Both the position numbers and the translations under genes were made by a program. Below are positions 1-55,934 of a stretch of DNA of 64,000 bases, piece after piece (position 1 is the first letter of the stretch; each line of letters begins with the position of its first letter). The DNA lies in the NCBI GenBank assembly GCA_015178975.1, contig WHVD01000018.1, positions 952,693 through 1,016,692 on the forward strand. Direction: 5' to 3'. This stretch comes from Hysterangium stoloniferum (lineage: Eukaryota; Basidiomycota; Agaricomycetes; Hysterangiales; Hysterangiaceae). Below the pieces are notes generated by a model. That model was not told the origin of the DNA. It did not search any database and saw only the letters and a program-made list of their open reading frames with translations.

Positions 1-338
1 ATATCCTAGGTATGTTTCTTCCCCTTTGATTATCTGCTAGTGATGATACTTACTTGACCACTTGTGGTTGTTGTAGATTTTGCCATTTCTAGTCAGTATT
101 AGCTCTCATTTGTGCATTTCAGTATGTTATGGAAGACCAGGGGGAGTAACTTGCTGCCCATGTAAATGTTGCCTCATGTGTAACACATGTTCATGGTTTG
201 AATACATCTGTCTCTGTATCTTGCAATTCTACAAATACTTTGGAGCTCCATCCATGTGGTTCTTCATGCACAGTAACAACAGGCTATGAGTGACTGTATG
301 CTATCCTCTTATCATGTCATTCCCTGATATTTCATTGG
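1..338 (+). other. Left edge of the acceptor-donor array, poorly defined
   Basis: No convincing coding sequence. Loose matches to the AG-NNN-GT pattern seen further right occur here, for example TAG-TCA-GTATTA near 91 and CAG-GCT-ATGAGT near 281, but the spacing is less regular. The array may start outside the window. Confidence 0.3.
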
Positions 339-2165
339 TAGAGTGTGAGTGTCCATACATATGTTGACAATATCTGGAGATTATTGATTCCAGTATCTTG
401 GCCTTTTAGTTTGTGAGTTGATCTTCCTTGTGATTGTCATTGCCTTATCTAACCTAACATCATTGCTTCTCAGTGGAATGTAGGTCTATCTTAGGGAGTG
501 TTATCATTATGTTGATCTCCACTTCTCCCTGCTCACCACAGAAAGTATGTAACACAATTCCACTGCAGTTCACTTTTTCTATCCACAATCATTGAATTAT
601 TATTATGTTTCCATGTGGTGAGTATTTTAGCAAATATGTTTATAATACTGCTCAAGCTATGTAGTTTATCATCCACTGCCCTCTTTTAGATTGTGAGTAT
701 GGCTTCTTCATATTTTTGTTTGGCTTCTGACATATTTGACAGGTAGTAAGCCCTTGCTGTTGTTTCAAGGCTGTATAAGCTTCATCAGGTATATTACCGA
801 TAGGATGTGAGTGTCTGCCCAGTTTTTCATATAATGGCTCATAACTGTTCCTGTAAACTACAATGTGACAGATGGTGAGTCTTTTTGTACTGCATGTTCT
901 TTTAGTGCCTCAATGACTTGTGGATGACTCAGGATGTAAGTGTCATGAATCAAATTTTACTCAATAAAGTTGAATAAACAATCAAAGAATATTCAACAAT
1001 ATTGAATAAAGATGCCTCATTCGATGAAGTATTAATTCACCCTGTTGATGAAGTAAGAGGCTATTACCAGTCACAAGAACTCATGGAAGTGTTTGTCGAA
1101 GAAGTTACGACAAGATAGATTATTAGTATCAGTAATTTACAGATATTTCAACTGACTTCTCTCGCTCCTTTTGTAGTCCTTTTATGCTTTTCTTCATATC
1201 GTTATGACTATGTTATGAACTAATAATGAAATCATACATGATGTCCAAATGAGACATGTCGAAAGAGATTTGATGTTGTTGAATAATGTTCAGGTTTGTC
1301 GAGTCGAATTTGATGTATTGAAGAGTTGTTGAAAGTTACCTTTGAATATTTGTGACAGTTGTGACAGTAAGTATGCACGTCCAATGCACAAATGATTGAT
1401 GCACACTAATAAGAGTATGATCCAACTGGTTTTAAACTGCACAGAAAGTGAGCATACTTATATGGTTATATTGAAGTTAACCTTATATGATTTCCACATT
1501 GTGAAAAGAATGTAAATTCTCTCTGAGTTCTAATTACATACTTCATTCACTCACAGCAATTTTCTGCCTGCTTGGACTTGATAGGCTGTGAGTTGGAATA
1601 TTCTCTGGATTTGGTTACTAAGAAATTCTAATGTTATATTTGTAATGCTCAAACAGGTTGATGTGAGTGTCTCTTCCAAACAACTATAGTATGCTTATTA
1701 AAAACTGTGTTGGAGATAGGCTGTAAGCACTGCCTATCCAAGATTTGGAAACCAGTTCATGATATTTTTTCATCTTACCAACAGACTGTATGTTTTGTCT
1801 GGTTAAATGCATTGTCAAAGTCTGGATAACAATGGTTATGCTCTTTGGTTGTGTGGATTACCTACAGAGAGTGAGTGTATCTGACTCTGTTGCATTTCAT
1901 GGCTAAGTAGGATGTGGACAATTTAGGAGGTTAGTCACATACTCATTGTCATGTATAGATATGTATTGAGTGGTGGATTGATTGGATATAAATCAGAGTG
2001 TATGTGATTTGCTTTTTGTACCAAATTGAAGAAAGGTACTCAATGGAATTTCCATGTGGGATTGCAGGTGGTGAGGATTCCTTGCTTGCTTGTAATCAGA
2101 ATTATTATCACAAACTAAACTGACATCTTGAACAATTGTGAGGGTGATCATTATAGAATGTAAGT
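339..2165 (+). other. Divergent array of intron-like segments separated by 3-nt (or 6-nt) exon-like gaps
   Basis: Seen directly: about 20 sites where a 3' splice-like AG is followed after exactly 3 nt by a 5' splice-like GTGAGT, GTAAGT or GTATGT. The 3-nt gaps start at 342, 410, 542, 690, 743, 804, 872, 933, 1445, 1509, 1585, 1720, 1795, 1868, 1927, 1997, 2068 and 2157. Two gaps are 6 nt (474-479, 1657-1662). All gaps are multiples of three. The segments between them are 50-86 bp, the usual fungal intron size, apart from one of 145 bp that seems to have lost a site near 615. The segment interiors are unrelated to each other. Joined in order the gaps give 22 codons without a stop. Either this is an extreme microexon gene or a decayed form of the tandem repeat at 2166-3870. 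Splicing itself is not shown. Confidence 0.6.
941..1366 (-). mobile_element. Solo LTR, family F (copy F2)
   Basis: The ends are TGTCAT...GTGACA and the 5-bp target duplication GTAAG (936-940 and 1367-1371) is perfect. In reverse complement it matches the right part of the LTR at 17282-17963, including the stretch with ATTCAACAATATTGAATAAAG. It is shorter than that copy (426 bp against 682 bp) and lacks its 19-bp minisatellite. The insertion sits exactly on a GTAAG splice-donor-like site of the surrounding array. Confidence 0.85.
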
Positions 2166-3870
2166 TTTTCTGCCTTCTCTGCCCCTCATGGCTCATTTCC
2201 CTTGGCATGCTCTTCCCAGGATGTGAGTTTCTGACCTTTCCCCCTTCTCTGCCCCTCATGGCTCATCTCCCTTGGCATGCTCTTCCCAGTTTGTGAGTTT
2301 GTGACCTTTTCCTCCTTGTCTGCCCCTCATGACTCATCTCCCTTGGCATGCTCTTCCCAGCTTGTGAGTTTCCAACTTTGTCCTCCTTGTCTGCCCCTCA
2401 TGGCTCATCTCCTTGGCATGCTCTTCCCAGCTTGTGAGTTTCCAACTTTGACCTCCTTGTCTGCCCCTCATGGCTCATCTCCCTTGGCATGCTTTTCCCA
2501 GCCAGTGAGTTTCTGACTTTGTCCTCCTTATCTGCCCTTCACCACTCCTCTCCTTTGGCATGCTCTTCCCAGGGAGTGAGTTTCTGACTTTGTCCTCCTT
2601 GTCTGCCCCTCATGGCTCATCTCCCTTGGCATGCTCTTCCCAGGAAGTGAGTTTCTAACTTTATCTGCCTTGTCTGCCCCTCACCCAGTCTGTAAGTTTC
2701 TAACTTTGTCCTCCTTCTCTGTTACTCATGACTCATCTCCTTTGGCATGCTTTTCCCAGCGAGTGAGTTCTGACTGTGTCCTCCTTCTCTGTCCTCATGA
2801 CTCATCTCCTTTGGCATGCTTTTCCCAATGAGTGGGGTTCTGACTTTGTCCTCCTTGTCTGCCCCTCATGGCTCATCTCCATTGGCATACCCTTCCCAGA
2901 TTGTGAGTTTCTGACTTTGTCCTCATTGTCTGCCTCTCACAGCACATCTCCCTTGGCATGCTCTTCCCAGTTTGTGAGTTTCTGACTTGGTCCTCATCTG
3001 CCCCTCATGGCTCATCTCCATTGGCATGCTCTCCCCAGGAAGTGAGTTTCTGACTTTGTCCTCCTTGTCTGCCCCTCAAGGCTCCTCTCCCTTGGAATGC
3101 TCTTCCCAGTTTGTGAGTTTTCTGACTTTGTCCTCCTTGTCTGCCCCTCATGGCTCATCTCCCTTGGCATGCTCTTCCCAGCTTGTGAGTTTTCTGACTT
3201 TGTGCTCCTTGTCTGCCCCTCATGACTCATCTCCATTGGCATCCTCTTCCCAGTTTTGAGTTTCTGACTTTGTCCTCCTTGTCTACCCCTCATGACTCAT
3301 CTCCCTTGGCATGCTTTTCCCAGTGAGTGAGTTTCTGACTTTGTCCTCCTTGTCTGCCACTCATAGCCCATCTCCCTTGGCATGCTTTTCCCAGCCAGTG
3401 AGTTTCTGACTTTGTCCTCCTTATCTGCCCTTCACCACTCCTCTCCTTTCGCATGCTCTTCCCAGGGAGTGAGTTTCTGACTTTGTCCTCCTTGTCTGCC
3501 CCTCATGGCTCATCTCCCTTGGCATGCTCTTCCCAGGAAGTGAGTTTCTGACTTTGTCTGCCTTGTCTGCCCCTCATGGCTCACGTCCCTTGGCATGCTC
3601 TTTGCAGATTGTGAGTTTCTGACTTTGTCCTCTTTGTCTGCCCCTCATGACTCATCTCCATTGGCATGCTCTTCCCAGTTTGTGAGATTCTGACTTTGTC
3701 TGCCTTATCTGCCCCTCACAGCTCATGTCCCTTGGCATGCTCTTCCCAGCCTGTGAGTTTCTGACTTTGTCCTCCTTGTCTGCCTCTCATGACTCATCTC
3801 CTTCGGCATACTTTTCTCAGCCAGTGAGTTTCTGACTTTGTCCTCCTTGTCTGCCCCTCATGGCTCATCT
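2166..3870 (+). repeat. 70-71 bp minisatellite, about 24 units, each with one CAG-NNN-GTGAGT site
   Basis: Tandem units of 70-71 bp (one of about 45 bp near 2650-2692) share a core with TGCCCCTCATGGCTCATCTC, then CTTCCCAG, three variable bases and GTGAGTTTCTGACTTTG. The variable triplets in order begin GAT, TTT, CTT, CTT, CCA, GGA, GAA, TCT, CGA and later include ATT, TTT, GAA, TTT, CTT, TGA, CCA, GGA, GAA, ATT, TTT, CCT, CCA. Two units (near 2830 and 3254) have lost the pattern. The CCA-GGA-GAA block occurs twice, 891 bp apart (2502-2646 and 3395-3539), with the same diagnostic CCTTATCTGCCCTTCACCAC variant, so multi-unit blocks have been copied. Short open frames here only reflect the repeat. 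Confidence 0.9.
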
Positions 3871-4520
3871 CCATTTCCATTGGCACCATTCATTGTCTAC
3901 ACTTTTAACAATATCTTGCATGATGGTGCCACACACCTTACTGAACTTACAGATATCTTGGCACATATTGTGAGGTCCATATGCCATATGCATAAACTGT
4001 CTCTGGATGAACTGTGTGCACTTCAATTGTACCTTCAGTTTTGGATACAACCATGTGTCCCTTCTTCTGATTCTCACCTCTTGGTGAATTGAACTGTATT
4101 GCCAGAGCCTATTGCAATAAGCCATCGAACTTTCATGTCATCTTTTCATCAAGATCCATGATTTGAGAATATTTCGAGGTTCAATGACAATATACCAACA
4201 GCAGATATATCCACTTCTATCGAAACAAGGAAGTATCTGTGTATTAGACCTAGTGGTCAAGCCCCTCTTACAGTCTTGCAGATGTGGTGTTAAAGGTACA
4301 AACATTGGTATGCCAGTGGTTAATATTCCAAGACATCAAACCATTAGACCATGGTCTGTGGGAGGATGTGTTCATACTTCCGATCAATCCAGTAAAGGGG
4401 TCAAAGTTGCAATTTGCAGAATATATTATTTTGCATGGCAGGTCCTTCCCAAGGGGTACAACACTGGAAACAACCCCCACTTCAAAAATCTAAAGGACCT
4501 TAGTAGAAGCTTGTAAACTC
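3871..4520 (+). pseudogene. Decayed coding sequence of unknown family
   Basis: Beyond the last array unit the plus strand reads as a protein-like frame for about 75 codons (to 4089), meets a TGA, and continues in the same frame with another TGA near 4159. A further open run in a shifted frame covers about 4250-4493. The residue make-up (hydrophobic helices, few low-complexity runs) looks more like real protein than the surrounding DNA, but I recognise no family. The minus strand also has open runs, so strand choice is uncertain. It could be a host gene remnant linked to the array or an old transposon. Confidence 0.35.
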
Positions 4521-17281: not shown

Positions 17282-17963
17282 TGTCACGAACATACAAACT
17301 CAAATTTTGATAATATTCAATTTAATATTTCTTCAACATTTCTTCAACATTCCTTTGACTTTCCGACTCAATTTCTGACTCGACATCTGACTCAACTATT
17401 CTTCGACAATATCTTTGACAATCTCGAATATCTTTGACAATCTCGAATATCTTTGACAATCTCGAATATCTTTGACAATCTCGAATATCTTTGACAATCT
17501 CGAATATCTTTGACAATCTCGAATATCTTTGACAATCTCGAATATCTTTGACAATCTCGAATATCTTTGACAATCTCGAATATCTTTGACAATCTCGAAT
17601 ATCTTTGACAATCTCGAATATCTTTGACTTGTCTCAGGTTGATATCATTGATGATTTCACTTTGATATCATATTATCATCATAGGTAAATGATATATAGT
17701 ATATAAGGGCAATGATAGGAATGAAGGAAGTCAGTCAGAAAACCTGTATTATAATTATATTATTACTGTATTATATAATCGTCCAACTTTTTCCGAGCCT
17801 TTCTTCAACTTATTTATTCGTGAGCCTCTGTGTCCTATCTTTGCCTCATGCTTTATCAACAGGATGAATTAATACTTCGTCGAATGAGGCATCTTTATTG
17901 GATATTGTTGAATATTCTTCGATTGTTTATTTGACTTTATTGAGTAAAATTCGATTTGTGACA
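17282..17963 (+). mobile_element. Solo LTR, family F (copy F1)
   Basis: TGTCACG...TTTGTGACA, 682 bp, with a perfect 5-bp target duplication GATTG (17277-17281 and 17964-17968) inside the Tc1 transposase gene. The empty site can be read from Tc1 copy 2. TG...CA ends and a 5-bp duplication are typical of LTR retroelements; the internal family is not present in the window. Confidence 0.88.
17410..17631 (+). repeat. 19-bp minisatellite, 11 identical units plus a partial
   Basis: The unit tatctttgacaatctcgaa repeats 11 times without a mismatch and ends in a partial copy. It lies inside the family F solo LTR and is absent from the other copy (941-1366), so it expanded after that copy separated. 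Long open frames on the minus strand across it are by-products of the repeat. Confidence 0.97.
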
Positions 17964-18477
17964 GATTGGAAGAGGGTATTGTGGCCTGATGAGACCAAAA
18001 TCAATAGGATTGGGTCAGATGGACATCAATATGTGTGGAAGAAACCTGGAGAACCACTTTCTGATAGGACAACCCAACCTACTGTCAAGCATGGAGATGG
18101 AAATATCATGGTCTGGGGCTGTATGGGTTGGAATGGAGTGGGAAGGCTTGTAGAGATTGAAGGAAGGATGGATTCTGCACAATATGTGGAGATCCTGGAT
18201 CAGTATTTGTCCCAGAGCATTAGAGATTTGGAGATTCCAAAAGATAAGGCCATTTTCCAGCAAGATAATGATCCAAAACATACATCCAAGATGGCACAAA
18301 AATGGTTTTCTGAAAATCAGATTCAGGTATTAGACTGGCCAGCACAGTCTCCTGATCTCAATCCCATAGAACATCTTTGGAATCACCTGAAGAAACAGCT
18401 ACAAAAATATCCTTCACTACCAAAGTGAGTTTGGAAGTTATGGGAGAGGTGGAAGTGGAATGGCCAAAGATTGAGCC

Positions 18478-28089: not shown

Positions 28090-29407
28090 CTAGTACTTTG
28101 TATGGCCTCCCTTAGCCTTTATTACAGCATCAAGTCTTCTGGGCATACCTTCTATCAGTTTCTGACACTCCTGAGGCTCAATCTTTGGCCATTCCACTTC
28201 CACCCTCTCCCATAACTCCCAAACTCCCTTTGGTGAGGAATATTTGTGTAGCTGTTTCTTCAGGTGATTCCAAAGATGCTCTATGGGATTTAGATCAGGA
28301 GACTGTGCTGTCCAGTCTAATACCTGAATATTCTTTTCAGTAAACCATTCTTGTTATGTTTTTGATCATTAGTTTGCTGGAAAATGGCCTTATCTTTTGG
28401 AATCTCCAAATCTCCAATGCTCTGGGACAAGTTCTGATCCAGGATCTCCACATATTGTGCAGAATCCATCCTTCCTTCAATCTCTGCAAGCCTTCCCACT
28501 CCATTCCAACCCATACAGCCCCAGACCATGATATTTCCACCTCCATGCTTGACAGTAGGTTGGGTTGTCCTATCAGAAAGTGGTTCTCCAGGTTTCTTCC
28601 ACACATATTGATGTCCATCTGACCCAATCCTATTTATTTTGGTCTCATCAGTCCACAATACCCTCTTCCAGTCATCCACTGTCCAGTGTTGGTATTTGAG
28701 GGCAAAGCTTAACCTGGCCTTTCTATGTTGAGCCTTCAACAAGGGCCTTTTTGCCTTGATTATTGCTTTGAAACCATGCTGTTTCAAGGTCCTCCTGACT
28801 GTGCTAGGTCACACATTATATTGATTGATACTGTTAATGTAATGTGTGGCTTGGGCAGCATTTGTTAGAATATGATAATGTGATTAATCGTAATCTCATA
28901 TCTCATCTTGTGACTGTATAGGTTCTGACTGGTTCACACATGTGATTGTTTTATTTAGTTCAGTGTTCACTAGATCTGTAGCATATTTATGCACAGACCA
29001 GTGCACAGACCATGTATTCTAGTATATAGTTAGTTCAGATGAGGAGTAGATCCCTCATCTGAAAGCCTAGTTATATCACCAGTTTAGCATCTACTCACTC
29101 TACTCTTAGTGGATACACTCCAACAGTAGAGAGTCCTCATACTGTGATCACCAGGCTAGCAGATTATTTGAACGGCATTATCTAGCTGGCCAGAGGTGAT
29201 TTGATGCATGGTCCTCCTTTGGTCAGCAGGAGAAAGCTTGGATGGACATCCTCCTTTTAAATTTTCTTTGTCTATCTCTATCTCCTGAGCAATTATACTG
29301 ATATTAGACTTGCTAAGACCTGTTGTAGAGGCTACATTCCTATTGGAGAGTTCATTTTGTAGGAGGGAGATGGCTTGTTCTCGTTTGAGAGGGGAAATAG
29401 CTTTCAT
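28090..29407 (-). pseudogene. Tc1 transposase, interrupted by LTR-C
   Basis: It reads from ATG at 29405-29407 through the helix-turn-helix region to 29175, is broken by the solo LTR, and resumes at 28862 through the DETKIN motif and the second catalytic region. Here the second Asp context is changed (QQTNDQKH against QQDNDPKH in copy 1) and the frame shifts near 28350. The C-terminus ends at TAG 28090-28092. Copy 2 keeps codons that are stops in copy 1, so the two broke independently. Inactive. Confidence 0.88.
28863..29174 (+). mobile_element. Solo LTR, family C (copy 2)
   Basis: 312 bp starting TGTTAGAATATG. The target duplication GCATT (28858-28862, 29175-29179) is perfect. The right end reads ...TTGAACG rather than the CTAACA of copy 46456-46748, so it has diverged. 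Repeated GTGCACAGACC-like words lie in the middle. Strand is arbitrary; no coding partner of this family is present. Confidence 0.85.
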
Positions 29408-34455: not shown

Positions 34456-35294
34456 TGTTAGGATACACACACAGGCCGGGTTTCTGGAGAAACCCGCGGG
34501 ATATCCGGTAGGACTTGGCTTCAGCTTATAGGCTGCGCCCTTGCTAGATCGTGTTGTCCAATTTCAAACAGACGGACGGGGATCCCGGGGAGTCCGGGCG
34601 GGGTTCATGGGTCATAGGTCGTAAGTCGGGTCGTGGGTCGTAAGTCGGAGGTCGTGGGTCGTGAGTCGAGTTGGTTGAGAGAGATAGATGCGCCAGAGCC
34701 TGTGGGCTCCGACTAGTGCGAGTGATGTGAATTGAGTAAGGTTTTAGAGTGGAAAATATTATTAGATTACTGGGGGGAATCTAAGCTAATTTTCTGACTG
34801 GATTGTATGTACAACATCTGCCAGTTTATATAGACCGTGGAATGCATGACATACCGAATCCAGTAATAATGAGATGAAACGAGCAAAACATAAAACGGGA
34901 ATAGTAAACACCAAATTGGTGTTAGGAATGGGACGGAACGGAGCGGAGTCCGAATCGTGACAAAGCATAACCCATAACGGGAAACGGAGCGGGAGCGGAG
35001 TCCTAAATCATGACAGGTCATTTGACTAAAACGGGAACGGGGCTCGATTAGAGCGGTGATGGGATTCTGAGCGGGTTCCGGTGACTGATGCATGGGACGA
35101 AGATGGACATAGACAGAGACGGAGTCCGGGGGAAGTCCGGTGACTGATATGTGTCGTAATGAGGTCGAACCTAACGAGTCTTGACATAACGGAGTCCGGG
35201 CGGGAAATCCTATAAACAGACAATTGGTGCTTGTAGCGCGTGGGGGCGTACGAGTTAGTGCCTGGAGTCCGGCGGGATTTGTCCGGTCGTAACA
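34456..35294 (-). repeat. Gyp-A 3' LTR (839 bp)
   Basis: TGTTAGGATAC...GTCGTAACA. It differs from the 5' LTR mainly by C/T changes at CpG and by the copy number of a short GGTCGTRAGTC repeat (about 34610-34675), which accounts for the 21-bp length difference. The 15-base core ggacttggcttcagc lies at 34511-34525. Confidence 0.93.
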
Positions 35295-36693: not shown

Positions 36694-39600
36694 TCAGAGA
36701 GACGATAATGGTCCAGGTTTGAGTGGGTAAGCTGTATGAAAGTCAGTAACGATTTCCGTAGCATTACCGAGTTCCGTGGCCAAAATCCATGAGGTTTCTT
36801 CATCGGTGCCCTCGTAACCCACCCACTTGACCAAGTAAAGCAGTTTACAAGTGCGTCGATGCTTGTCAATTTTTGAATCTAAAATCTGCGAGATTTCAAA
36901 CTCGGGTTCTCCGTCAATGATGACAGGAGGAGGCGGAGATTGCACGCGATCCGGGATAGTGTTAGCAGTACAAGGTTCTAGCATAGAGACATGAAATACC
37001 AGGTGTACCGCGTGCATGCTATCCGGAAGCCGTAGAGTCCAAGAAACTGAACCTACTTGTGCGATAATTTCAAAGGGACCTAAATATTTTTCAGCAAGCT
37101 TCTTTGATGGACGGGTAGTCCAGAAGAATTGAGCTTTGACATAAACACGGTCGCCAATCTTGAAGTTGGGTGGCGGGATCCGGTGTTTGTCCGCTGAATG
37201 TTGGTATTGCTCTTGGGCGGACAGTATTGCAGTCCGGAGTTCCTCGTGGAGCTCGTGGAGGTCCATGGTGAACTCTTGAGCACGAACAGAGGCGAGATTT
37301 CATTCTGGATGTACTGTAATGTTTGGATTATATCCTTTATTTGCAAAGAATGGGGAAACGCCAGTAGTGGCCGAGGGTGCATTGTTGTAAGCAAACTCTC
37401 CAAGTGGTAACAAGGTTTTCCAATTGTCCTGTTGGTAGTTGCAATAAACACGGAGGTATTGTTCCAATGTCTGGTTGACGCGTTCGGTTTGTCCGTCACC
37501 TTCCGGGTGATGTCCGGATGTGAAATGTAATGTCATGTCCAAGGATTTTCTGAGGGATCTAAAGAAGTGAGACACGAACTCTGATCCTCGATCGGAAGTC
37601 ATGTGGGACGGAACTCCGTGCTTGGAAAATATGTGGATAATGAAAAGTTCCGCTAACTGCACGGACGTAATTGTATCATAAGTAGGGATGAATATACCTT
37701 GTTTTGAGAATCTGTCAACAACGACTAGAATAGCAGAAAAGCCTTCAGAATCCGGTAGGTGTTCAATGAAATCCATAGATATAGAATTCCATGGGTGTTC
37801 TGGTACCGGGAGTTGTTTCAAAAGGCCGTATGGCTTGTGTCGCTGAGATTTCGAGCGGGGACAAGTAGTGCAAGATTTACAATAGTGCTTAACGAATCCA
37901 CGGAGTCCGGGCCAAGTATATTCTCTTCTTATTAATGATAGAGTTTTGTTGTACCCGAAATGTCCTGAGAGTGGATGATCATGTTTGTATTGAAGGATCC
38001 TGAGGCGGAGGCCGTGGGAGTCCGGTACATAGATACGATCGTCAAGTCTAATGAAACCATGTTGATCAAGAGACCACCGAGGTTGATCGGGGTCCACGGG
38101 ATTGTCCAGATGAGCTTTAGTAACTAGGTCTAGCGGAATTGCCGATAGAATATCTTGATGTAACTTCTCGATATCCATAATGATAATTCCACGGACAATG
38201 GGATTGACGAGGAAAGTTGCGCAGACCGATGCGGTAAGTTGTTGATTCGTGAAAATAGGTTTCAGGTTGTGCGGATTTACCGTTGCATAGTCATTGCTCC
38301 CCTCTTTAGGATAGACGTGCCATCGTCTAGTTAAAGCGTCGGGTTTGCCGCCGAGACGGCCGGGTCGAAAACAGGATAATCATGTTGAAAGTGGAGAGAT
38401 ATTCAGACCAGCGGGCCTGCCGGCGGGTCAAGAGTTTTGTGGTAGAAAAGTATTCCAGGTTTTTGTGATCTGTTACAACGTCAATAGGAGCTCCTGAACC
38501 TTCCAAATAGTGTCGCCACGCTTTGAAAGCTGAAAAGATTGCCAGAAGTTCTTTATCATGAACATCGTAGTTGAGCTCTGCTCCAGTAAAAGTCTGGGAC
38601 AGAAAAGCCACGGGGTGGACTTCTCCGTCGGAGTCCTGGATAGACAAAATGGCTCCAAGCGCATAATCGGAGGCGTCCGTTTCAACGATGAGCGGGAAGT
38701 CCGGTTTCCAATGCGACAGAATAGGAGCTGTGGAAAAAGAATTTTTTAAAAGATTGAAAGCTTTTTGACACTTATCGTTAAAGTTCCACGGAGTACCCTT
38801 ACGCGTAAGACGGGTAAGGGGTACCGTGATGTCAGAATATCCACGGATAAAACGTCTATAAAAATTGGCAAAGCCGAGGAAGGATTGTATATCTTTAACT
38901 TTTCGGGGTTCGGGCCAATCTTTGATGACTTGCACTTTAGTTTCGTCCATGCGGAGTCCATCGGGTCCCATCATGAAACCTAGGTATTCCACGGAGTCCG
39001 TGTCAAAAGTACATTTTTTACCATTTGCGAAATAAACCATGTTGTCTGAGTCTCCGGAGAACTTCACGGACTTGTTTGTCGTGTTCCGCGGGATTCTCGG
39101 AGTAGATAAGAATGTCGTCCAAGTAAACAATGATGCATACATCGAGCATGTCGGAGAAAATGTCGTTGATAAAACGCTGAAAAACAGACGGGGCATTAGT
39201 GAGTCCAAAAGGGATGACCAACCACTCAAAGGCCCCATAACGGGTTCTAAAAGTGGTTTTCCATTCGTCGCCCGCGGCGAATCCGGACCAAATGATAGGC
39301 ATGTGCTTGAGATCTATTTTGGTGTAAATCCGGGCATTCTGCGGAGCATCGAGCAGGTCAGATATAAGTGGGAGTGGATATTTATCCTTTTTGGTGACAG
39401 CATTGAGTCCTCTAAAATCAACACATAGTCGAAGGGATCCATCCTTCTTTCTGACAAACAGAACAGGTGCTCCAAAAGGAGACTTTGAGGGTCGAATAAA
39501 GCCTATGGACAAATGTTCATCCAGGAAATCACAGATTGTGGATAGTTCCATGGACGAAAGCGGGTAAATATGTCCTAGGGGTGGCTGGGCGCCATCTTCA

Positions 39601-40425
39601 AGATCAATTTTTAAGTCGTATTCTCTGTGAGGCGGAAGCCGGTCAGCTTTTTGCTTGCTAAAAACATCCGCGAAGTCATGGTATTTCTCCGGGACGCCTT
39701 CTAGGTCAGCGGCTTGCTCAGATTCGGATACTGGGGTTGAGAAACGTCCAGTTGCTTCATCAATTTTTAAGTTGATAGTGTGAACGCCTGGGACCCATCC
39801 ATTTTTGAAGCCCTAATAAAAGCTGCAGCATTAATCAGAGAAATGGACGGAGGTGCCGTGGGTTCTGGGGAAGCTATAGGTGCCGTAGGGATCACAGGAG
39901 TCCTCGAGACTGCAGGTGCCGGGAAGGCCATGGGTGCTGTGGAGGCCGAGACAGGCGCAGTTTCCTCGGTCACTGCGGGAGTCCGGAATGTTATACTGTT
40001 AGCTATCCAGTCAATCAACGGATTGTAGCGGGTAAGCCAGTTATGTCCTAGAACCACCGAGCAACTTGAGTCTAACTGGGTCACATAGAAAGTGACCAAT
40101 TGAGATGTTCCACAAGGGAAACTGATGGGTAAATCACAAGCTTGGGTAACAACCGAATTACTTGTGCCATCGAAGAGGCGGAGAGCGATGGGATTTATCG
40201 AATAAGTTGACAAAGAATTTTTTTGCGTGAATTTTGTATCTAAAAAACAATGAGTCGAGCCGGAATCTATGAGAGCTGAAAAAACGAATTTCGGGATCAT
40301 ATTAGACATAAGTTTAACGAAAAATGAATCAGAATGTGAAAGAGCGGATGTGTTGAGGCGAGTGAACTCTTGAATGTGCGGAGAGGCAACGCAACCCCTA
40401 ACCCGTGCGGAGTCCGCAGGGTTGC
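36694..40425 (-). pseudogene. Gyp-A pol: protease, reverse transcriptase, RNase H, integrase, chromodomain
   Basis: The pol frame is -1 to gag and open from the Gag stop through the first ATG (40307-40309). Order: retropepsin-like protease with DSGST (40253-40267); RT from about 39551 with YLDD at 39114-39125; RNase H with DASDYALGA near 38665; integrase with zinc-binding HDHPLSGHF and CTTC (about 37880-37990), then the catalytic D in MDFIEHL, D in TSDRGSE and E in NQTLEQ (37460-37790); chromodomain (EFEIS...YLVKWVGYEG...) at about 36730-36910. Damage: single-base insertions near 39035 (after RLRQHGLF) and near 38370 (end of RNase H), a compensated shift near 39290, and TGA at about 37302, where Gyp-B has TGG. 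Not active as it stands. Confidence 0.92.
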
Positions 40426-40437
40426 TTACTCTTTTTT
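40391..40437 (-). promoter_or_regulatory. Candidate gag-pol frameshift signal of Gyp-A
   Basis: On the minus strand: a run of six A's and G (40431-40437), the Gag stop TAA (40426-40428), and immediately after it a stem with arms GCAACCC (40419-40425) and GGGTTGC (40391-40397). The same layout occurs in Gyp-E (52359-52405). Pol is in the -1 frame. Confidence 0.55.
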
Positions 40438-41607
40438 CGAATCGGCAGCCGGTTTATCCTTCGACGGGGTTTCCGTGGAGGCCTTGGCTGATCGACCCTT
40501 TGAAGAGTTTGCTTTTGCCAGCAGACATTCCGGGACTCGATGACCGGGTTTCCCGCACAATAGACAGAGGTTGTTGTCCATACGACGTTGTCTTTCTTGT
40601 GGAGTCAATTTGCCATCAGGTCCGAGTTTGCCTGAGAGGTCGGGTTTTCCGGCTTGCTTGCCGGACTGTTGACCCTTGTTGTTGTCCTTATTGTCCTTAT
40701 TGTTGTTGTTGTTGTTTGAAGACTTTTTATTGTTCTTCTTGTCGGATTGCATGGAGTTCTGGTTGCTGGTTGACGAATTGTTGTTATTGTTTTTGTCCTT
40801 GGACTTGTTTATTTTGTCCGCAGATGTCTCGCGGGCAACTTCCACGCGATGTTCCCAATAACGTGCGTCCGCGTTTTGAGCTTTGAGGTGCATATGGGAC
40901 AGGGTTTTTGGTTTGCCATCTTCTCCTTTCGAGACTTCGTCTTTAAGGCGGGATGGCAGACCGGCGTAGAATTGGTGGCGGAGAGCGGGATCGCCCCACT
41001 GACAACGAGCTGCAAGATTATTGAATTGGACGATGTAGTCCGTGATGCGCTGCGTGTCCTTCATACGAAGATTTGTGAGACTATTCTCGGCTTCTCCTGT
41101 CGGGTCATACGGGCCGAAGTTGGTTTCAAGCTCCTCAACAAAAGCTTCCCAATTTTCAAGCCAGAGCGGCTCTTCCTCGGTAATCCCGCTAAAAGCCGGT
41201 TCGAACCATTTCAACGCGGATCCCGACAAATATGAAAGTGTGTAGTTGACTTTTCGGGAGTCCGTGGAGAATGCAGCAGCACGATTGCGGAAATTGAAGC
41301 GACATTGCATGAGGAAAGTGGAGAGTTTGTTTGGGTTGGAACCTGTGAAGGGTTCCAGAGCATTGACTTTTGACCGTGGAGGTTCTTGTTCCTTTCTTTT
41401 TCGTTCTTCTAGCAGGTGCATCATGAATTTATCTATAGTACCTGCTAAAAACTCAGAAGTAGGATCCCTCGTGTGCGGTCGTTGAAAAGGCGGAGGATTT
41501 TCAGGAGGGATTTCGACACCTTTGCCCTTGTCGGGGGCCACGGAATCGTCCTCGCGCTTGGATTCGTCCAGGTCTTCCGGGACTTCTTCAATGCGGGCTT
41601 CTTCCAT
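40426..41607 (-). CDS. Gyp-A Gag polyprotein with CCHC zinc knuckle
   Basis: Intact 393-residue frame. It has an acidic N-terminus (about residues 1-45), a retrotransposon gag/capsid-like helical core (about 60-230, including WFEPAF and ITDYIVQFNNLAARC), an N/K-rich stretch of about 50 residues encoded by GTT/ATT repeats (about 280-330), and a nucleocapsid-type zinc knuckle C-x2-C-x4-H-x4-C (CLLC...GH...C) near residue 355. Gag would assemble the virus-like particle and package RNA. An upstream start is not needed; the ATG lies about 150 bp inside the 5' LTR. The Gag stop is followed by the candidate frameshift hairpin. Confidence 0.92.
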   Translation of the reverse strand: MEEARIEEVPEDLDESKREDDSVAPDKGKGVEIPPENPPPFQRPHTRDPTSEFLAGTIDKFMMHLLEERKRKEQEPPRSKVNALEPFTGSNPNKLSTFLMQCRFNFRNRAAAFSTDSRKVNYTLSYLSGSALKWFEPAFSGITEEEPLWLENWEAFVEELETNFGPYDPTGEAENSLTNLRMKDTQRITDYIVQFNNLAARCQWGDPALRHQFYAGLPSRLKDEVSKGEDGKPKTLSHMHLKAQNADARYWEHRVEVARETSADKINKSKDKNNNNNSSTSNQNSMQSDKKNNKKSSNNNNNNKDNKDNNKGQQSGKQAGKPDLSGKLGPDGKLTPQERQRRMDNNLCLLCGKPGHRVPECLLAKANSSKGRSAKASTETPSKDKPAADSKKE

Positions 41608-41754
41608 GGGTTCCGACTAGTTCGCAAGCGTCTGACTGGTATACAGAGTTAACGGGGGATGAAGAGTCGACGGTCCAGGTATTGATGACTGTGCGCATGT
41701 ACTTCTTCTTGGTGGCATAATGAAAACAATCTGCGAGTATTAGTCAGAAAATAC

Positions 41755-50403: not shown

Positions 50404-51032
50404 TGTTACGACTGTGTCGCAACCCCTCGCAGGCCGACGGCCCCGATGGTATAACGTCATAGTATTTGTCTGTCTTCAATCAGCTAGACATCTCGGACGC
50501 CATTGGCATCCCGACGCTGACGTATACCCTCCCAGCTATTCAAACCCAACTACGCCTTTTCTGTCTGGATATGCTTTGATACTCCCTTTCCATTATGATG
50601 ATCCATTTTACACTATGTCTCACCTATGTCTATATATATATGTAACCCTCGAACTATTTCCTTTTACCGTAGTCCCGCTCTCGGTTATCATCGGCCTCCG
50701 AACTAATCATAAACTTCCCATTCCTAGTCAAGCTTATTGTTAATACGGTCTTCTGCCTTTCTCCCCATTAGTATTTTCTAGACCCCTGTTACTCATATAT
50801 GAACCCGCTGTAGTTGTAGTTACTAGGCAATCAGAATATCGACTCAGAACATCCCCCTAGCTCTATATTAAGTATCCCGCCATCTGCATCCTTGGTCTTC
50901 GACCTCGGTCTCTGACCTCGGCCTCCGATCTTCACCCGCCCGAAATCTAAGGACATAATAAGCTGAAGCCAAGTCCTTCCATTCAGCCCCCATCGGTTAC
51001 CCAACATTTAGCCTGTCAGTCAGTTCTTAACA
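50404..51032 (+). repeat. Gyp-E 5' LTR (629 bp)
   Basis: TGTTACGAC...TTCTTAACA. TATATATATA at 50631-50640 is a likely TATA region. Compared with the 3' LTR it lacks about 28 bp just before the core GCTGAAGCCAAGTCC (50962). Confidence 0.93.
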
Positions 51033-51069
51033 GTATATTCTGATTTCACACTCGCATTTCACATCAACC

Positions 51070-52370
51070 ATGCCCCCGAGAAAGAAAGATGCCAAGCCAA
51101 GTGGCGAAGCAGAATCTTCCACTCTCAAGTCTCCTTTCCTGTATACAGCCCGAGCCATTTCAAGAACCCCGCAATTAGGAACCTCCGAAGAATCCCACTT
51201 TGTGGAAATTACCGGTGATGCTGAAGAAGTTACTGAAGCAACCAAACCCGAAGCACCTGAAGGGGATAACAATCAATCAGCTCCGGAACCTGAACCCGAG
51301 GATAACGACCAACCAGCACCTCAGGCCAGTGGTTCTAAAAAATCCACAAAACACAAACCAGCTCTCGATCCCAACAAAACATGGGAATTGTTCTCAGGTA
51401 CCCTAGGATCCCTTAATGAATTCCTTCAAAACAATACAAAGGAAAAGGAACCTGGGCAAACCCGAGTCAACAAACCCGAACCGTTTACCGGTTCAAACCC
51501 GAAGAAATTGCTGACATTTCTTATGCAATGTTGATTCAACTTTCGGGACCGCCCAGCTGCCTTTGCGACGGATGACCGAAAGGTAAACTTTGCACTCTCT
51601 TACCTCAAGGATTCCGCAGCAGCCTGGTTTGAACCCGCATTTTCCGGCCTCACCTTGGAAGATCCTGACACGATTGGGATGCTTTCGTTGAAGAACTCGA
51701 AACAAACTTCAGTCCCTACAACCAAAACGGCGATGCTGAAACTGCGCTTTCTAATCTCAAAATGAAAGACACCCAGCGCATCACCGATTACATCGTCCAG
51801 TTCAACAACCTTGCCACGCGTTGTGACTGGGGCGATTCAGCCCTCCGTTACCAGTTTTACTCCAGCCTTCCATCTCGCCTCAAAGATGAAGTTTCCAAAG
51901 GAGAGACTGGCAAGCCGAAGACCCTCCCTCTCATGCGTCTGAAAGCCCAAAACGCAGATGCCCGATACTGGGAACAACATTCAGAAATTAGTCATGAAAA
52001 CCCCTCGGACAAGAAATCGTCGGACAATAAGAACACCAAAAAGTCTGGTAATCAAAACACCAACAACAGTGGCAACTCGACCTCCAATAAAAAGTCTGAA
52101 AACAAAGGGTCTAATGACAAAAAAGGCAAGGGAAAACAGTCGAATAAGTCTCAAGACAAAGACAAACCCGACTTAACTGGCAAACTCGGCTCCGATGGCA
52201 AGCTCCTACCACAGGAAAAGCAATGCCGAATGGACAACAATCTGTGCTTGTTATGCGCAGATCCCGGACACCGAGTCGCTGCATGCCTAAAAGCCACAAA
52301 AGCCCGATCGGCCAATATGGCCTCAACTTTGCAACCGGCCAAGCCGGCTGCCGAATCGAAAAAAGATTAA
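51070..52370 (+). pseudogene. Gyp-E gag with zinc knuckle, one stop and one frameshift
   Basis: MPPRKKD start, acidic N-terminal part, gag core (WFEPAFSGL, ITDYIVQFNNLATRC), N/K/S-rich linker, and zinc knuckle C-x2-C-x4-H-x4-C near 52245-52290. TGA at 51532-51534 stands where Gyp-A encodes Arg (CGA to TGA). A small deletion near 51665-51680 shifts the frame (Gyp-A has about 5 more residues here). The last frame, from 51762, is clean to the TAA at 52368-52370. Confidence 0.92.
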
Positions 52371-52405
52371 GCAACTCTCTGGATTCTGTGCGGTTAGAGA
52401 GTTGC
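52359..52405 (+). promoter_or_regulatory. Candidate gag-pol frameshift signal of Gyp-E
   Basis: AAAAAAG at 52359-52365, the Gag stop TAA at 52368-52370, then a perfect 10-bp stem: GCAACTCTCT (52371-52380) and AGAGAGTTGC (52396-52405) with a 15-nt loop. The -1 frame is open through it into pol. In the zero frame the codons are AAA AAA GAT, so the run is one base off the canonical X-XXY-YYZ heptamer; slippage of a single Lys-tRNA would do. Confidence 0.6.
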
Positions 52406-55400
52406 ATTAAATCTCCCCGCACACCAGAAAGTTGTCATCTTAACGCATCTGCACTTCATGATCCAAATGCCTTATTTGTAAATCTTACTTCGGAACCCCT
52501 CAGGAGCCTCATTTTTCGAGCTCTTGTAGATTCAGGTTCAACCCATTGTTTTATAGATAAAAATTTCTCCCGAAAAAACCTCTTAAACACCTATGCAATA
52601 GATCCGATTCTGCTCCGACTTTTTGATGGTACCTCAAACTCTGTAATCTCACAAGCCTGCAAACTCCGAATTTGTTTCCCTTGTGGAACTTTTCAATCCA
52701 TTACATTTTTCGTAACACAGTTGGACTCGAGCTGCTCCGTGGTTTTAGGACATAACTGGCTCACCCGTTACAATCCGTTGATTGATTGGGTATTGGGCAG
52801 TATCCAATTCCAAACCCTGCCGGCACCCGATACAACTGCTCTGTCTCTGCCCGTTTTGGCAAATATGGCCTTTACTGCACCTCCAGCCCCCATGGCAAAT
52901 CCGAGCTCTCCGCCCTCCGTCTCTCTAATAAATGCCACAGCCTTTATGAGAGCCATCAAGTTGGAAGGTTCCCGAGCATTTTCCATCAAACTCAAAGTTG
53001 ACAAAGTTACCAGTCGCTTTGTGACTCCGGTAACTGAACCTGTCGCAGATTTGGAAGGTGTTCCAGAAAAATACCACGATTCTGCTGATGTCTTCAATAA
53101 ACAAAAAGCTGATCATCTTGCCCCTCATAGGCCCTACAATTTGAAAATCAATATTGAAGAAGGTTCACATCCGCCCTTAGGCCCAGTTTATCCTCTCTCG
53201 CAATCCGAGTTATCGGCTATCTGAGATTTCTTGGATGAACATTTGGCTATAGGATTTATCCGACCCTCAAAATCTCCTTATGGAGCCCCTGTCCTGTTCG
53301 TTCGGAAAAAAGACGGTTCCCTTCGGCTTTGCATTGACTTTCGAGGACTAAATGTGATCACTCGAAAAGATAAGTACCCATTACCTCTAATTTCCGATTT
53401 ACTCGATGCCCCTCGGAAGGCCTGAATTTGTACGAAGATAGACCTCAAACATGCCTATCATTTGGTTCGGATCGCTGAAGGCGACGAATGGAAAACGGCT
53501 TTTCGCAATCGTTATGGCTCCTTTGAATGGTTAGTGATGCCTTTCGGCCTCACCAATGCTCTGTCGGTTTTTCAATGTTTTATCAACGACGTCTTTTCCG
53601 ACCTCCTCGACATCTACGTCATTGTGTACTTAGACGATATCCTTTTTGATGTCGACACAATTGAATATTTAGGCTTCATGATGGGACCTGATGGTCTCCG
53701 CATGGACAATTCTAAAATTCAAGTCATTCAAGATTGGCCAGAGCCCCGAAAAGTCAAAGACATCCAGTCCTTTTTAGGTTTCGCTAATTTTTATCGTCGT
53801 TTCATTCACAACTACTCAAAAATTACCATTCCGCTCACCCGTCTTACTCGTAAAGACACCCCGTGGAACTTCTCCAAAGAATGCCGATTGGCATTCCAAG
53901 AATTGAAAAGTGCATTCACGTCTGCCCCTATATTCTCACACTGGAAACCCGATGTTCAACTCATTGTGGAAACTGATGCCTCAGATTATGCACTTGCTGC
54001 GATATTGTCCATTCTGGACACTGACAGTGAAGTCCACCCAGAAGCTTTTTTGTCTTGCACATTCTCGGCACCTGAACTCAATTACAATGTTCATGATAAA
54101 GAGCTACTCGCAATATTTGAAGCTTTCAAGACATGGAGACATTATTTGGAAGGGTCGGCTCACCCGACAGACATTATAACCGACCATAAAAACTTGGTTT
54201 ACTTTTCAACCACAAAACTACTCACCCATCGGCAAGCCCGATGGTCGGAATACCTTTCTGCCTTCAATATGATTATCCATTTCTGCCCCGGCCGCCTTGG
54301 CGGGAAACCCAACGCTATGACTAGACGATGGGATGTCTACCCTAAAGAGGGGAGTAGCGACTACGCCACAGTTAATCCACATAACTTTAAACCTATGTTT
54401 TCATCGGAACAACTGTCTGCATCAATCCAAGTGACTTACCTCATACATCCAGTCATGCGCAGTGTTATCCTTATGGATACCGAAAAGTCACATCAAGATA
54501 TACTATCGGCAATTCCATTAGACCCAGTCACCAAAGCACACCTCGATAATCCATCTGACCCCAATCAACCCCGATGGTCGCTAGATGCACAAGGTTTCAT
54601 TAGACTCGACAATCGCATTTATGTACTGGATTCCGACACCCTTCGGCTGCAAATCCTACAACATAAACACGACCACCCGATCTCGGGACACTTCGGCCTC
54701 AACAAGACTCTTGCACTCATTTGCAGAGAATATACTTGGCCCAGCCTCCGAGTTTTCGTTAAGCACTATTGTAAATCTTGTACAACTTGTTTACACTCTA
54801 AATCACAGTGACACAAACCATATGGCCTACTCAAACAATTATCGATACCGGAAAAACCCTGGAACTCGATTTCTATGGATTTCATTGAGCACCTACCAGC
54901 ATCCGAAGGACATACAGCAATCCTAGTTGTTGTGGATCGGCTCTCAAAGCAAAGCATTTTCATTCCAACTTATGATACAATAACGTCTGTACAGTTGGCT
55001 GAACTATTCGTCACCCATGTGTTTTCAAAGCACGGTGTCCCATCGCATGTCACATCCGATTGCGGTTCCAAGTTTGTCTCTCATTTCTTTAGGTCACTCA
55101 GAAAAGCGTTAGACATGAAACTGCATTTCACTTGGGGTTACCACCCAGAAGGTGACGGCCAAACCGAATGCATGAACCAAACTTTGGAACAATACATTCG
55201 TATCTATTGCAATTATCAACAAGACAATTGGAAATTGTTACTACCACTAGCCAAATTCGCATACAACAACGCCCCAAATGCCACTACTGGCATTTCTCCT
55301 TTCTTCGCAAACAAAGGCTACAACCCGAATATCACTATCCACCCGTGCTCAAGACTTTGTTACTAATCTAGACGAGCTACATCAAGAACTTCGGAAAACA

Positions 55401-55934
55401 ATCACAATGGCCCAAGAGTGATACCAACGGTCCGCAGATAAAAATCGACTCCCATCTCCCAATTTTAAAATCGGTGATCGAGTATTCATTAAAGCTGAGT
55501 TTTTCCAAACCACTAGACCTTCTAAAAAGCTCTCTGAAAAGTATTTAGGTCCTTTTGAAGTCATAGCACAAGCTGGCACACTTTTGTGGACGCTTCGGCT
55601 TCCCGACAACCTGCGTGCAGTCCACCCGGTGTTCCACGTATCTATGTTAGAACCATGCATTACTAACACTATACTGGATCACATACAACCACCACCACCA
55701 CCTGTAATTATCAACGGAGAACCCGAATTTGAAATATCAGGAATCCTAGACTCCAAGATCGACAATCACAGGCAATCGTGCAAGTTACTTTATTTGGTCA
55801 AATGGACTGGCTATGAAGGTACAGATGAAGAAACTTCCTGGATCCTAGCCACTGAACTCGGCAATGTGTCAGAAATTGTGTTAGGTTTCCATCAAGCATA
55901 CCCGAACAAACCCGGTCCTTTAGACTCTCTTTAG
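52371..55934 (+). pseudogene. Gyp-E pol: protease, RT, RNase H, integrase, chromodomain
   Basis: Protease DSGST at 52529-52543; RT from about 53231 with YLDD at 53627-53638; RNase H with DASDYAL near 53970; integrase HDHPISGHF and CTTC (about 54665-54790), the catalytic D in MDFIEHL (54875), D in TSDCGS (about 55050) and E in NQTLEQ (55181); chromodomain about 55720-55900. Defects: TGA at 53222 (Cys in Gyp-A), TGA at about 53423 and about 54811 (both CGA in Gyp-A), loss of about 35 codons straight after the YLDD box (53640), a deletion near 55346 that shifts the frame, and TGA near 55420. Not functional. Confidence 0.92.

Follow-up and report, generated by a model that had tools for sequence, protein, structure and literature searches.

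In a stretch of 64,000 nucleotides from the genome of the ectomycorrhizal, truffle-like basidiomycete Hysterangium stoloniferum (G000:C90:952693-1016692; hereafter the window), an array of splice-like sites between positions 339 and 3870 is very probably a decayed, partial copy of a family of GTPase genes in which a hypervariable segment of one-codon exons stands between the GTPase and a C-terminal tail. The better-kept members of this family, located by searches of the 111-Mb assembly (554 contigs), have a nine-exon GTPase followed by 22 conserved tiny exons, 15-73 hypervariable one-codon exons and tail exons. A wider reading, which we advance tentatively and regard as not quite an even call, is that these exons encode a hypervariable recognition segment whose introns act as recombination arms, with crossovers swapping codons in frame. 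Such a system would be undescribed, would have arisen at least twice in Hysterangium (in the GTPase genes and in a membrane-ankyrin family), would occur in other mushrooms, where annotated GTPases stop at the first microexon intron, and would amount to a genome-encoded repertoire for nonself recognition.

Splice-like sites at one-codon spacing

According to the original prediction, acceptor-like AG and donor-like motifs along this region are separated by exactly three nucleotides, and an unbiased scan for AG-N(k)-(GTRAGT or GTATGT), with k from 0 to 12, bears this out. With these strict donors the left part (339-2165) has 12 sites at k=3 against 0-3 at every other k, and 1000 dinucleotide shuffles give a mean of 0.17 and a maximum of 3; in the right part (2166-3870) all 21 sites found have k=3 (shuffle mean 0.03, maximum 1). 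With a looser donor the k=3 count is 17 for 1-2165 and 22 for 2166-3880. The remainder of the window (3871-64000) has no k=3 excess, with 3 sites on the plus strand and 4 on the minus strand, and its richest 3.5 kb of plus strand contains a single site; chance or composition as the source of the pattern is thus ruled out by the shuffles and by the remaining sequence. The segments of the left part are not repeats of each other, as had also been proposed: a tandem-repeat search reports the right part as a 71-bp array from 2173 and does not report the left segments as mutual repeats. Across the genome, three GTGAGT-flanked triplets in a row occur 674 times, compared with 45 times for the reversed pattern.

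A family of GTPase genes

The left part of the array (273-941 together with 1367-2165) recurs at 76-98% identity at at least 21 other places, in addition to two fragments, and 71-bp-type arrays adjoin most of these copies. The search scored the best 40 of 1259 candidates, which makes the locus counts lower bounds. GTPase exons of the same family are present at at least 25 loci. Twenty stretches, with one copy each, were analysed, and two further loci, L037 (a copy with a large insertion) and L041, were added later. One intact locus spans C168:368.3k-375.3k.

Typical P-loop (TRAFAC-type) GTPases carry the motifs G1, GxxxxGK[ST], G3, DxxG, and G4, [NT]KxD. The protein encoded upstream of the microexon block contains GNANAGKT, HDSxGFE and TKMD: in the translated loci, G1 reads GNANAGKT (GSANAGKT in L018), G3 reads FHDSRGFE or FHDSCGFE, and G4 reads TKMD, or TNMD in the broken copy L024. 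Across 86 homologs, drawn from the 120 listed GTPase matches (another alignment took 35 of them), D86, G89 and K156 are invariant and D158 is nearly so. The GTPase is open across nine exons in 17 of the 20 copies and broken in L024, L034 and L035; L028 and L029 are counted as open although their first GTPase donor is AT rather than GT. Mismatch between copies is 6.3, 5.0 and 10.6% at codon positions 1, 2 and 3, and 9.7% in the introns. The reading frame of GTPase exons 8-9 was set by the proteins P0006 and P0007, while the homolog query, the Pfam query and the joined L022 protein carry for these exons a stretch from a wrong exon model.

The N-terminus (MSQEQLENSNN..) passes straight into the GTPase domain, and no hydrophobic leader was seen by eye. 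In Pfam, NACHT scored 14.1 bits against a cut-off of 26.7 and nSTAND3 scored 16 against 27.2, both far below threshold, and neither WD40 nor any other repeat domain was found for the family. Fold comparison pointed tentatively to the Immunity-related GTPases (Irga6, GM4951), with septins and EngB, at 13.4, close behind; sequence identity is 13%, and a GTPase fold shared with this group shows no shared function. A sequence search of PDB gave two weak matches (an acyl carrier protein chain with an E value of 0.00068 and another of 0.56) that were judged not meaningful, and no relative was confirmed in IMG/VR.

A conserved chain of 22 tiny exons

Between the GTPase and the hypervariable array lies a chain of 21 exons of three nucleotides and one of six, in phase with the GTPase, with the consensus peptide PSFNKLIVDMDKNAVDATRESVD. 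The block was aligned in 20 copies without L034, whose block is interrupted by an insertion. Mismatch between pairs of copies is 1.5% at AG and 1.6% at GT, rising to 5.1% at donor positions 3-6 and 13.4% in the intron interiors, so that the tiny exons are flanked by GT-AG introns with conserved splice sites, as in spliceosomal microexons. Exon length is altered in 3 of 440 exon cells; intron length varies, and not in multiples of three.

The proposal that this is a gene of introns and single-codon microexons therefore survives for the family, which is kept, whose splice sites are constrained and whose environmental homologs join the residues; the window copy itself looks like a pseudogene. The two six-nucleotide gaps that had been reported fare differently from each other. 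The one near 474 reflects a lost acceptor, many relatives having AG CAG|AAT and hence a three-nucleotide exon, whereas the other, GTTGAT at 1657-1662, is real.

Environmental proteins with the microexon peptide

The homolog search gave 1215 matches, of which the best 120 were listed; the query included the microexon peptide, but it is the GTPase that carries the matches. Four of the 120 listed matches, all environmental, extend the GTPase with the microexon peptide, namely P0008, P0006, P0013 and, more loosely, P0018. In P0008 (449 amino acids, from an 1800-base contig), LPSFDKLINDMDKNAVNAMRESVD is followed by IRALSLDLDDLHLHDRFHARLLDRFHFFHDLRGHEN and then by RYLQQC and the tail. Its microexon peptide and that of joined L022 are identical at 17 of 23 residues with zero gaps. 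The two proteins align end to end: their variable segments differ in length, and their tails share QQC, FQK and VV(F/L)DI. The tail exons of L022, of 54, 46 and 195 nucleotides, hold the frame that yields these tail matches. An exact-string search of the 20 loci found tail exon A in 6 and tail exon C in 8, the others being diverged, missing or outside the stretch. That the conserved chain would be joined in the mature product is strongly supported by this comparison of proteins with genomic sequence.

Environmental proteins also leave the microexon peptide exactly at exon boundaries: P0012 (..LP|VRIAI), P0026 (..LPS|VSVLA) and P0013 (..ESV|VSYLI). The residues that follow fit GTGCGN or GTGAGT donors, as far as donors can be read back from residues. 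In Amanita muscaria and Russula decolorans, annotated proteins terminate at LVRICS or near it, an ending that fits read-through into the intron just before the first tiny exon. We read the boundary departures as probable products of partly spliced RNA and the annotated protein ends as likely truncated gene models.

Codons and introns of the hypervariable array

Beyond the conserved block, each array unit consists of an intron of about 68 nucleotides and one codon, and the 20 copies contain 951 intact units. The unit scan was trained on 89 of 989 clean sites (selected by a crude string filter) and found 1018 units, from which the conserved-block exons were then removed. Since the set of 951 omits both conserved-block units and those without AG or GT, the 0.00 mismatch of its AG and GT columns arises by selection and is no evidence. 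Array length is 15-73 units, a range that omits L023 (9 units, at a contig end) and L035 (17, interrupted).

Stop codons occur in 3 of the 951 intact units, all TGA, in L019, L032 and the window copy; a set of 1007 units has 3, against 70 expected under independent codon positions. The repertoire is narrow, with TTT, GAA, CGA, CAA, GAT and CTT making up 748 of 1007 codons and A or T in the third position of 891 of 929, and most amino acids rely essentially on a single codon (TTT 195 against TTC 2; GAT 105 against GAC 0). CAG, AAG and TAG do not occur, and 6 triplets end in AG, compared with an expected 13.7, a scarcity that fits avoidance of a second acceptor next to the donor. Codons ending in C are also rare. 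A splicing constraint on the last codon base is a possible alternative cause of the codon bias.

Variation is concentrated in these three bases. When units of the same locus are compared in pairs (14,626 pairs, none with more than 14 differences in the flanks), mismatch is 0.66, 0.64 and 0.52 at the three codon positions against 0.107 in the flanks, and not spread regardless of reading frame as in a simple minisatellite. The variable segment has no hydrophobic periodicity at lags 1-8 (largest |z| 1.43), and the structural model of P0008 has a predicted local distance difference test score (pLDDT) below 50 at 315-352; an ordered helical or strand pattern was rejected on these two grounds.

These observations bear on an alternative in which the array is a non-coding minisatellite within one large intron, its resemblance to splice sites is accidental and splicing passes directly from the GTPase to the tail. 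In favour of this alternative, the right part is indeed a simple tandem array of 71-bp units, and the public protein of L022 (P0001, 255 amino acids) ends before the array. The 22 left exons, by contrast, are mutually unrelated and share the same spacing, with an AG and GT divergence of about 1.5%; P0008 holds both the conserved peptide and a variable segment; and a minisatellite offers no reason for variation mainly at three bases per unit with stops avoided there. We give a pure minisatellite very little credence and reject it on the splice-site constraint of the left exons and the codon-confined variation.

Turnover of codons between gene copies

Codons and nearby intron variants are associated, and the association fades with distance. 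The excess information between codon and intron variants is 0.095, 0.076, 0.029 and 0.032 at 0-9, 10-19, 20-29 and 30 or more bp. Another computation, on those 16 of the 20 sets in which 25 or more units could be aligned, gives 0.129, 0.074 and 0.032, and between intron variants themselves 0.086, 0.020, 0.010 and 0.002. A decay over tens of bases indicates that codons move with their neighbourhood and that recombination breaks the linkage. Each locus also has its own small codon lexicon, L021 lacking TTT and L022 lacking GGA.

Near-identical copies share no codon order. The GTPase regions of L021 and L022 are 1.3% apart, and their arrays align no better than shuffles (z -0.4). The 16 loci whose arrays have 25 or more units form 120 pairs; with 25 shuffles for each pair, array alignment exceeded z=3 in 2 of them. 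The GTPase parts of L041 and L036 are 98.7% identical over 1353 bases without a gap, their blocks 97.0% and their array introns 91.0%; of their codons, 5 of 44 are equal in the best overall alignment, and the strings of 44 and 47 codons give z 0.7 against 200 shuffles, that is, no shared order. Shifts by whole units align the introns of these two copies equally well (89-91%), so that units cannot be paired singly. The absence of a common order in near-identical copies implies that change takes the form of unit turnover rather than of point changes in fixed units.

Rewriting of the codon of each unit by a dedicated mechanism, a targeted hypermutation, might be suspected from the 175 unit pairs that are identical over 68 flanking bases, 86 of which differ in the codon, 69 of these 86 by two or three bases at once. 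Against this, codons stay associated with nearby intron variants, as flank variants do among themselves, and the use of one codon per amino acid together with the locus lexicons points to the reuse of old cassettes. Codon-intron linkage and lexicons thus disfavour hypermutation, which we regard as quite improbable.

Recombination of old one-codon cassettes, combined with selection for diversity, fits best. Since every exon is a single codon, neither more nor less, and lies in phase 0, any number of units in any order can be joined without leaving the frame. In the mechanism that we propose, the array exons would be spliced in Hysterangium and the near-identical introns would serve as homology arms. 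One-codon cassettes would be added, dropped and exchanged by unequal crossing-over and by short conversion tracts, with the frame intact, and selection would hold the codon strings of different copies apart while the GTPase is conserved. Recognition of varying partners, in nonself recognition or allorecognition, may be the role, although here we are guessing.

An anatomy of this kind might also serve a splicing factory, in which loci skip different one-codon exons and diversity arises mainly at the RNA level, with many variants per cell. One-codon exons and alike introns within arrays would keep any skipping in frame. The codon diversity is, however, already present in the DNA of near-identical copies, and P0008 reads the conserved microexons in fixed order with no residue missing, so that we consider this explanation unlikely. 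Neither alternative transcripts nor recursive splicing, both raised in the original prediction, is required by anything seen.

Several results weigh against a translated array spliced as cassettes. Exon bases in the conserved block mismatch at 15.5, 8.2 and 9.9% at codon positions 1-3, compared with 13.4% in introns. At least one site other than GT or AG is present in 8 of the 20 blocks, all splice sites being kept in 12. Stops are found in 3 and 2 of 893 units in phases 1 and 0 and in 137 in phase 2; with phase 1 nearly stop-free too, stop avoidance alone does not fix the phase, which is fixed by the flanking exons and P0008. The frame check of the tail exons covered L022. The environmental proteins, P0008 among them, would be of complementary DNA (cDNA) origin, as we infer because the GTPase introns are absent, and their source organisms may themselves use one-codon exons. 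Finally, P0008 is the only protein that spans a variable segment completely; when its residues 270-449 were used as a query, no other was found.

A second family with ankyrin repeats

Three successive GTAAGT-flanked triplets occur at 106 places in the genome, against 9 in the reversed control. Among the 100 places listed, some are a 21-bp minisatellite and one belongs to the GTPase family (C124); the rest lie on C24, C209 and C542, where one-codon arrays of a second family were delimited: L038 (G000:C24:439090-446441, minus strand), L039 (G000:C209:66299-67852, plus strand) and L040 (G000:C542:189789-196626, plus strand). A DNA search returned the same three contigs, together with fragments on C507, among the best candidates scored. 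The units are about 73 bp long, and their intron looks unrelated to that of the GTPase family. Sites at k=3 number 23, 13 and 22 in the three loci, as opposed to 0-4 at other spacings, and the codons at the array start are common to all three (K F F G/E N/K E R F E A/V Y). The protein encoded upstream has several stretches that look hydrophobic and membrane-like by eye, and it has ankyrin repeats (Ank_2, E value 3.7e-21); Pfam gave no NTPase match for it. From anatomy, this would be a second, unrelated family with one-codon arrays of its own.

The upstream protein has relatives in Mycena. In the Mycena ankyrin proteins P0122, P0129 and P0144, the ends resemble donor read-through near the start of the Hysterangium array (9 of 120 listed matches were inspected). 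Arrays may be present in Mycena ankyrin genes as well.

Relation to known systems

The original prediction knew of no described system of this kind, and a literature search whose reach excluded subscription papers and preprints likewise found no arrays of one-codon exons among the titles listed. In the part of the Hysterangium stoloniferum genome paper that was available (PMC7550596), the species is named once in the main text and GTPase, GTP-binding and microexon are not mentioned. Functional microexons were previously undescribed in filamentous fungi according to the consulted portion of a 2024 paper, which deals with a 20-nucleotide exon of Trichoderma Xlr2 (PMC11121469). Excerpts of other papers describe single-nucleotide exons in Arabidopsis APC11 (PMC4674806) and Fusarium CYP621A (PMC12940212), a 3-bp exon in Drosophila homothorax (PMC7392893) and microexons in plants (PMC8831610). 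Such cases resemble the present one in that exons of 1-20 nucleotides can be joined and are often missed by annotation. They differ, as far as these excerpts go, in having one or two tiny exons per ordinary gene, whereas Hysterangium genes have 37-95 consecutive one-codon exons (one of them of two codons).

Schistosomes have micro-exon genes (MEGs), most of whose exons are longer, at up to about 36 nucleotides; many of the products are secreted, and the exons are not known to be tandem repeats of intron and codon. Introner-like elements place introns into existing coding sequence. In the Hysterangium arrays, unlike the latter, intron and codon move together and every unit contributes one residue. 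The likenesses, taken from the accessible text of the sources, are that MEGs also combine many short exons with variable proteins (PMC10399815) and that introner-like elements and intron gain by tandem duplication also multiply similar spliceosomal introns in one genome (PMC4457414, PMC4974935).

The HNWD nonself-recognition genes of Podospora anserina (het-d, het-e and het-r; PMC2873952, in the part consulted) are alike in combining an NTPase with extremely polymorphic repeats in a multigene family, the repeats recombining both inside a member and from one member to another; their unit is a WD repeat in the protein, whereas the Hysterangium unit is an intron plus one codon and mostly untranslated. 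The combination that defines fungal HNWD genes and NOD-like receptors (NLRs), NACHT or NB-ARC with WD40, TPR or ANK, was not found here.

If our interpretation is true, these genes have, with 37-95 consecutive tiny exons each, one of the most extreme exon-intron structures known to us, and they would be a test case for how the spliceosome handles exons too short to be recognized as exons. They would also supply a concrete reason to keep many introns, in that a diversity region built in this way recombines freely and never loses frame. Such genes would be mis-annotated, because gene models stop short of the first tiny exon or break off at it, and their repertoire of variable proteins would have escaped notice.

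The copy in the window and neighbouring features

The copy in the window is best read as a decayed partial duplicate, pseudogene-like in that no GTPase exons precede it, an insertion interrupts it, three of its splice sites are lost, and it contains stop codons and ends without a tail. It begins directly after the tail of the neighbouring copy L017 (C90:946.1k-952.7k, immediately to the left of the window), the nearest of the better copies. L017 has kept an open GTPase together with an array and tail exons but has lost the splice sites of microexon 4. Positions 1-9 (plus strand, as are all the exons and introns below) hold the end of tail exon C of L017; the intron-like sequence after it (10-270) resembles the stretch behind tail exon C of L022.

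Conserved microexon 1 is GCT (A) at 283-285, where most relatives have CCC or CCT (P), and its donor is broken to ATGAGT. Microexons 2, AGT (S), and 3, TTT (F), lie at 342-344 and 410-412. The acceptor of microexon 4, AAT (N), at 477-479 has changed from AG to GG; microexon 5, AAA (K), is at 542-544; and microexon 6, GTG (V), at 615-617 (CTG, L, in many relatives) has an acceptor changed to AT. Of the 22 conserved exons, 3 have accordingly lost GT or AG. The stretch 690-935 holds microexons 7-11 and their introns and encodes I V D M D (ATT 690, GTA 743, GAT 804, ATG 872, GAT 933).

A dispersed insertion of about 425 bp (942-1366), with GTAAGT on both sides as a possible target-site duplication, occupies the intron after microexon 11; it is missing from the 19 other aligned blocks and matches at least 18 other places in the genome well. 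Its edge accounts for the AG-TAA-GT site at 1366. Microexons 12-14 with introns (1445-1587) encode K N A (AAA 1445, AAT 1509, GCT 1585), the six-nucleotide microexon 15, GTTGAT (V D), is that at 1657-1662, and microexons 16-22 with introns (1720-2159) encode A T R E S V N (GCT 1720, ACT 1785, AGA 1868, GAG 1927, AGT 1997, GTG 2068, AAT 2157).

The hypervariable array of 71-bp units follows at 2160-3872; it has 24 units, of which 22 keep both AG and GT, and codons from 2220 to 3821. Broken units are found at 2829 and 3253. One TGA stop, at 3324, belongs to an intact unit, and another, at 2829, to a unit with acceptor AA. The array stops at 3872 without tail exons.

Elsewhere in the window, Rfam gave no match. 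A Ty3/gypsy-like element on the minus strand (36694-41616) has gag and integrase by Pfam, and another on the plus strand (51031-55934) was recognized by eye from its reading frames; a chromodomain-like end at such elements of the window was likewise judged by eye. A transposase fragment on the plus strand (17868-18428) matches DDE_3 in Pfam, and one on the minus strand (28317-28808), identified by eye, encodes a protein much like it. A 19-bp tandem repeat, AATATCTTTGACAATCTCG, runs for 11.6 perfect copies at 17408-17628. A 21-bp minisatellite with GTAAGTCGG is present at G000:C13, C223, C377 and C520, and positions 34609-34668 of the window are similar to it.

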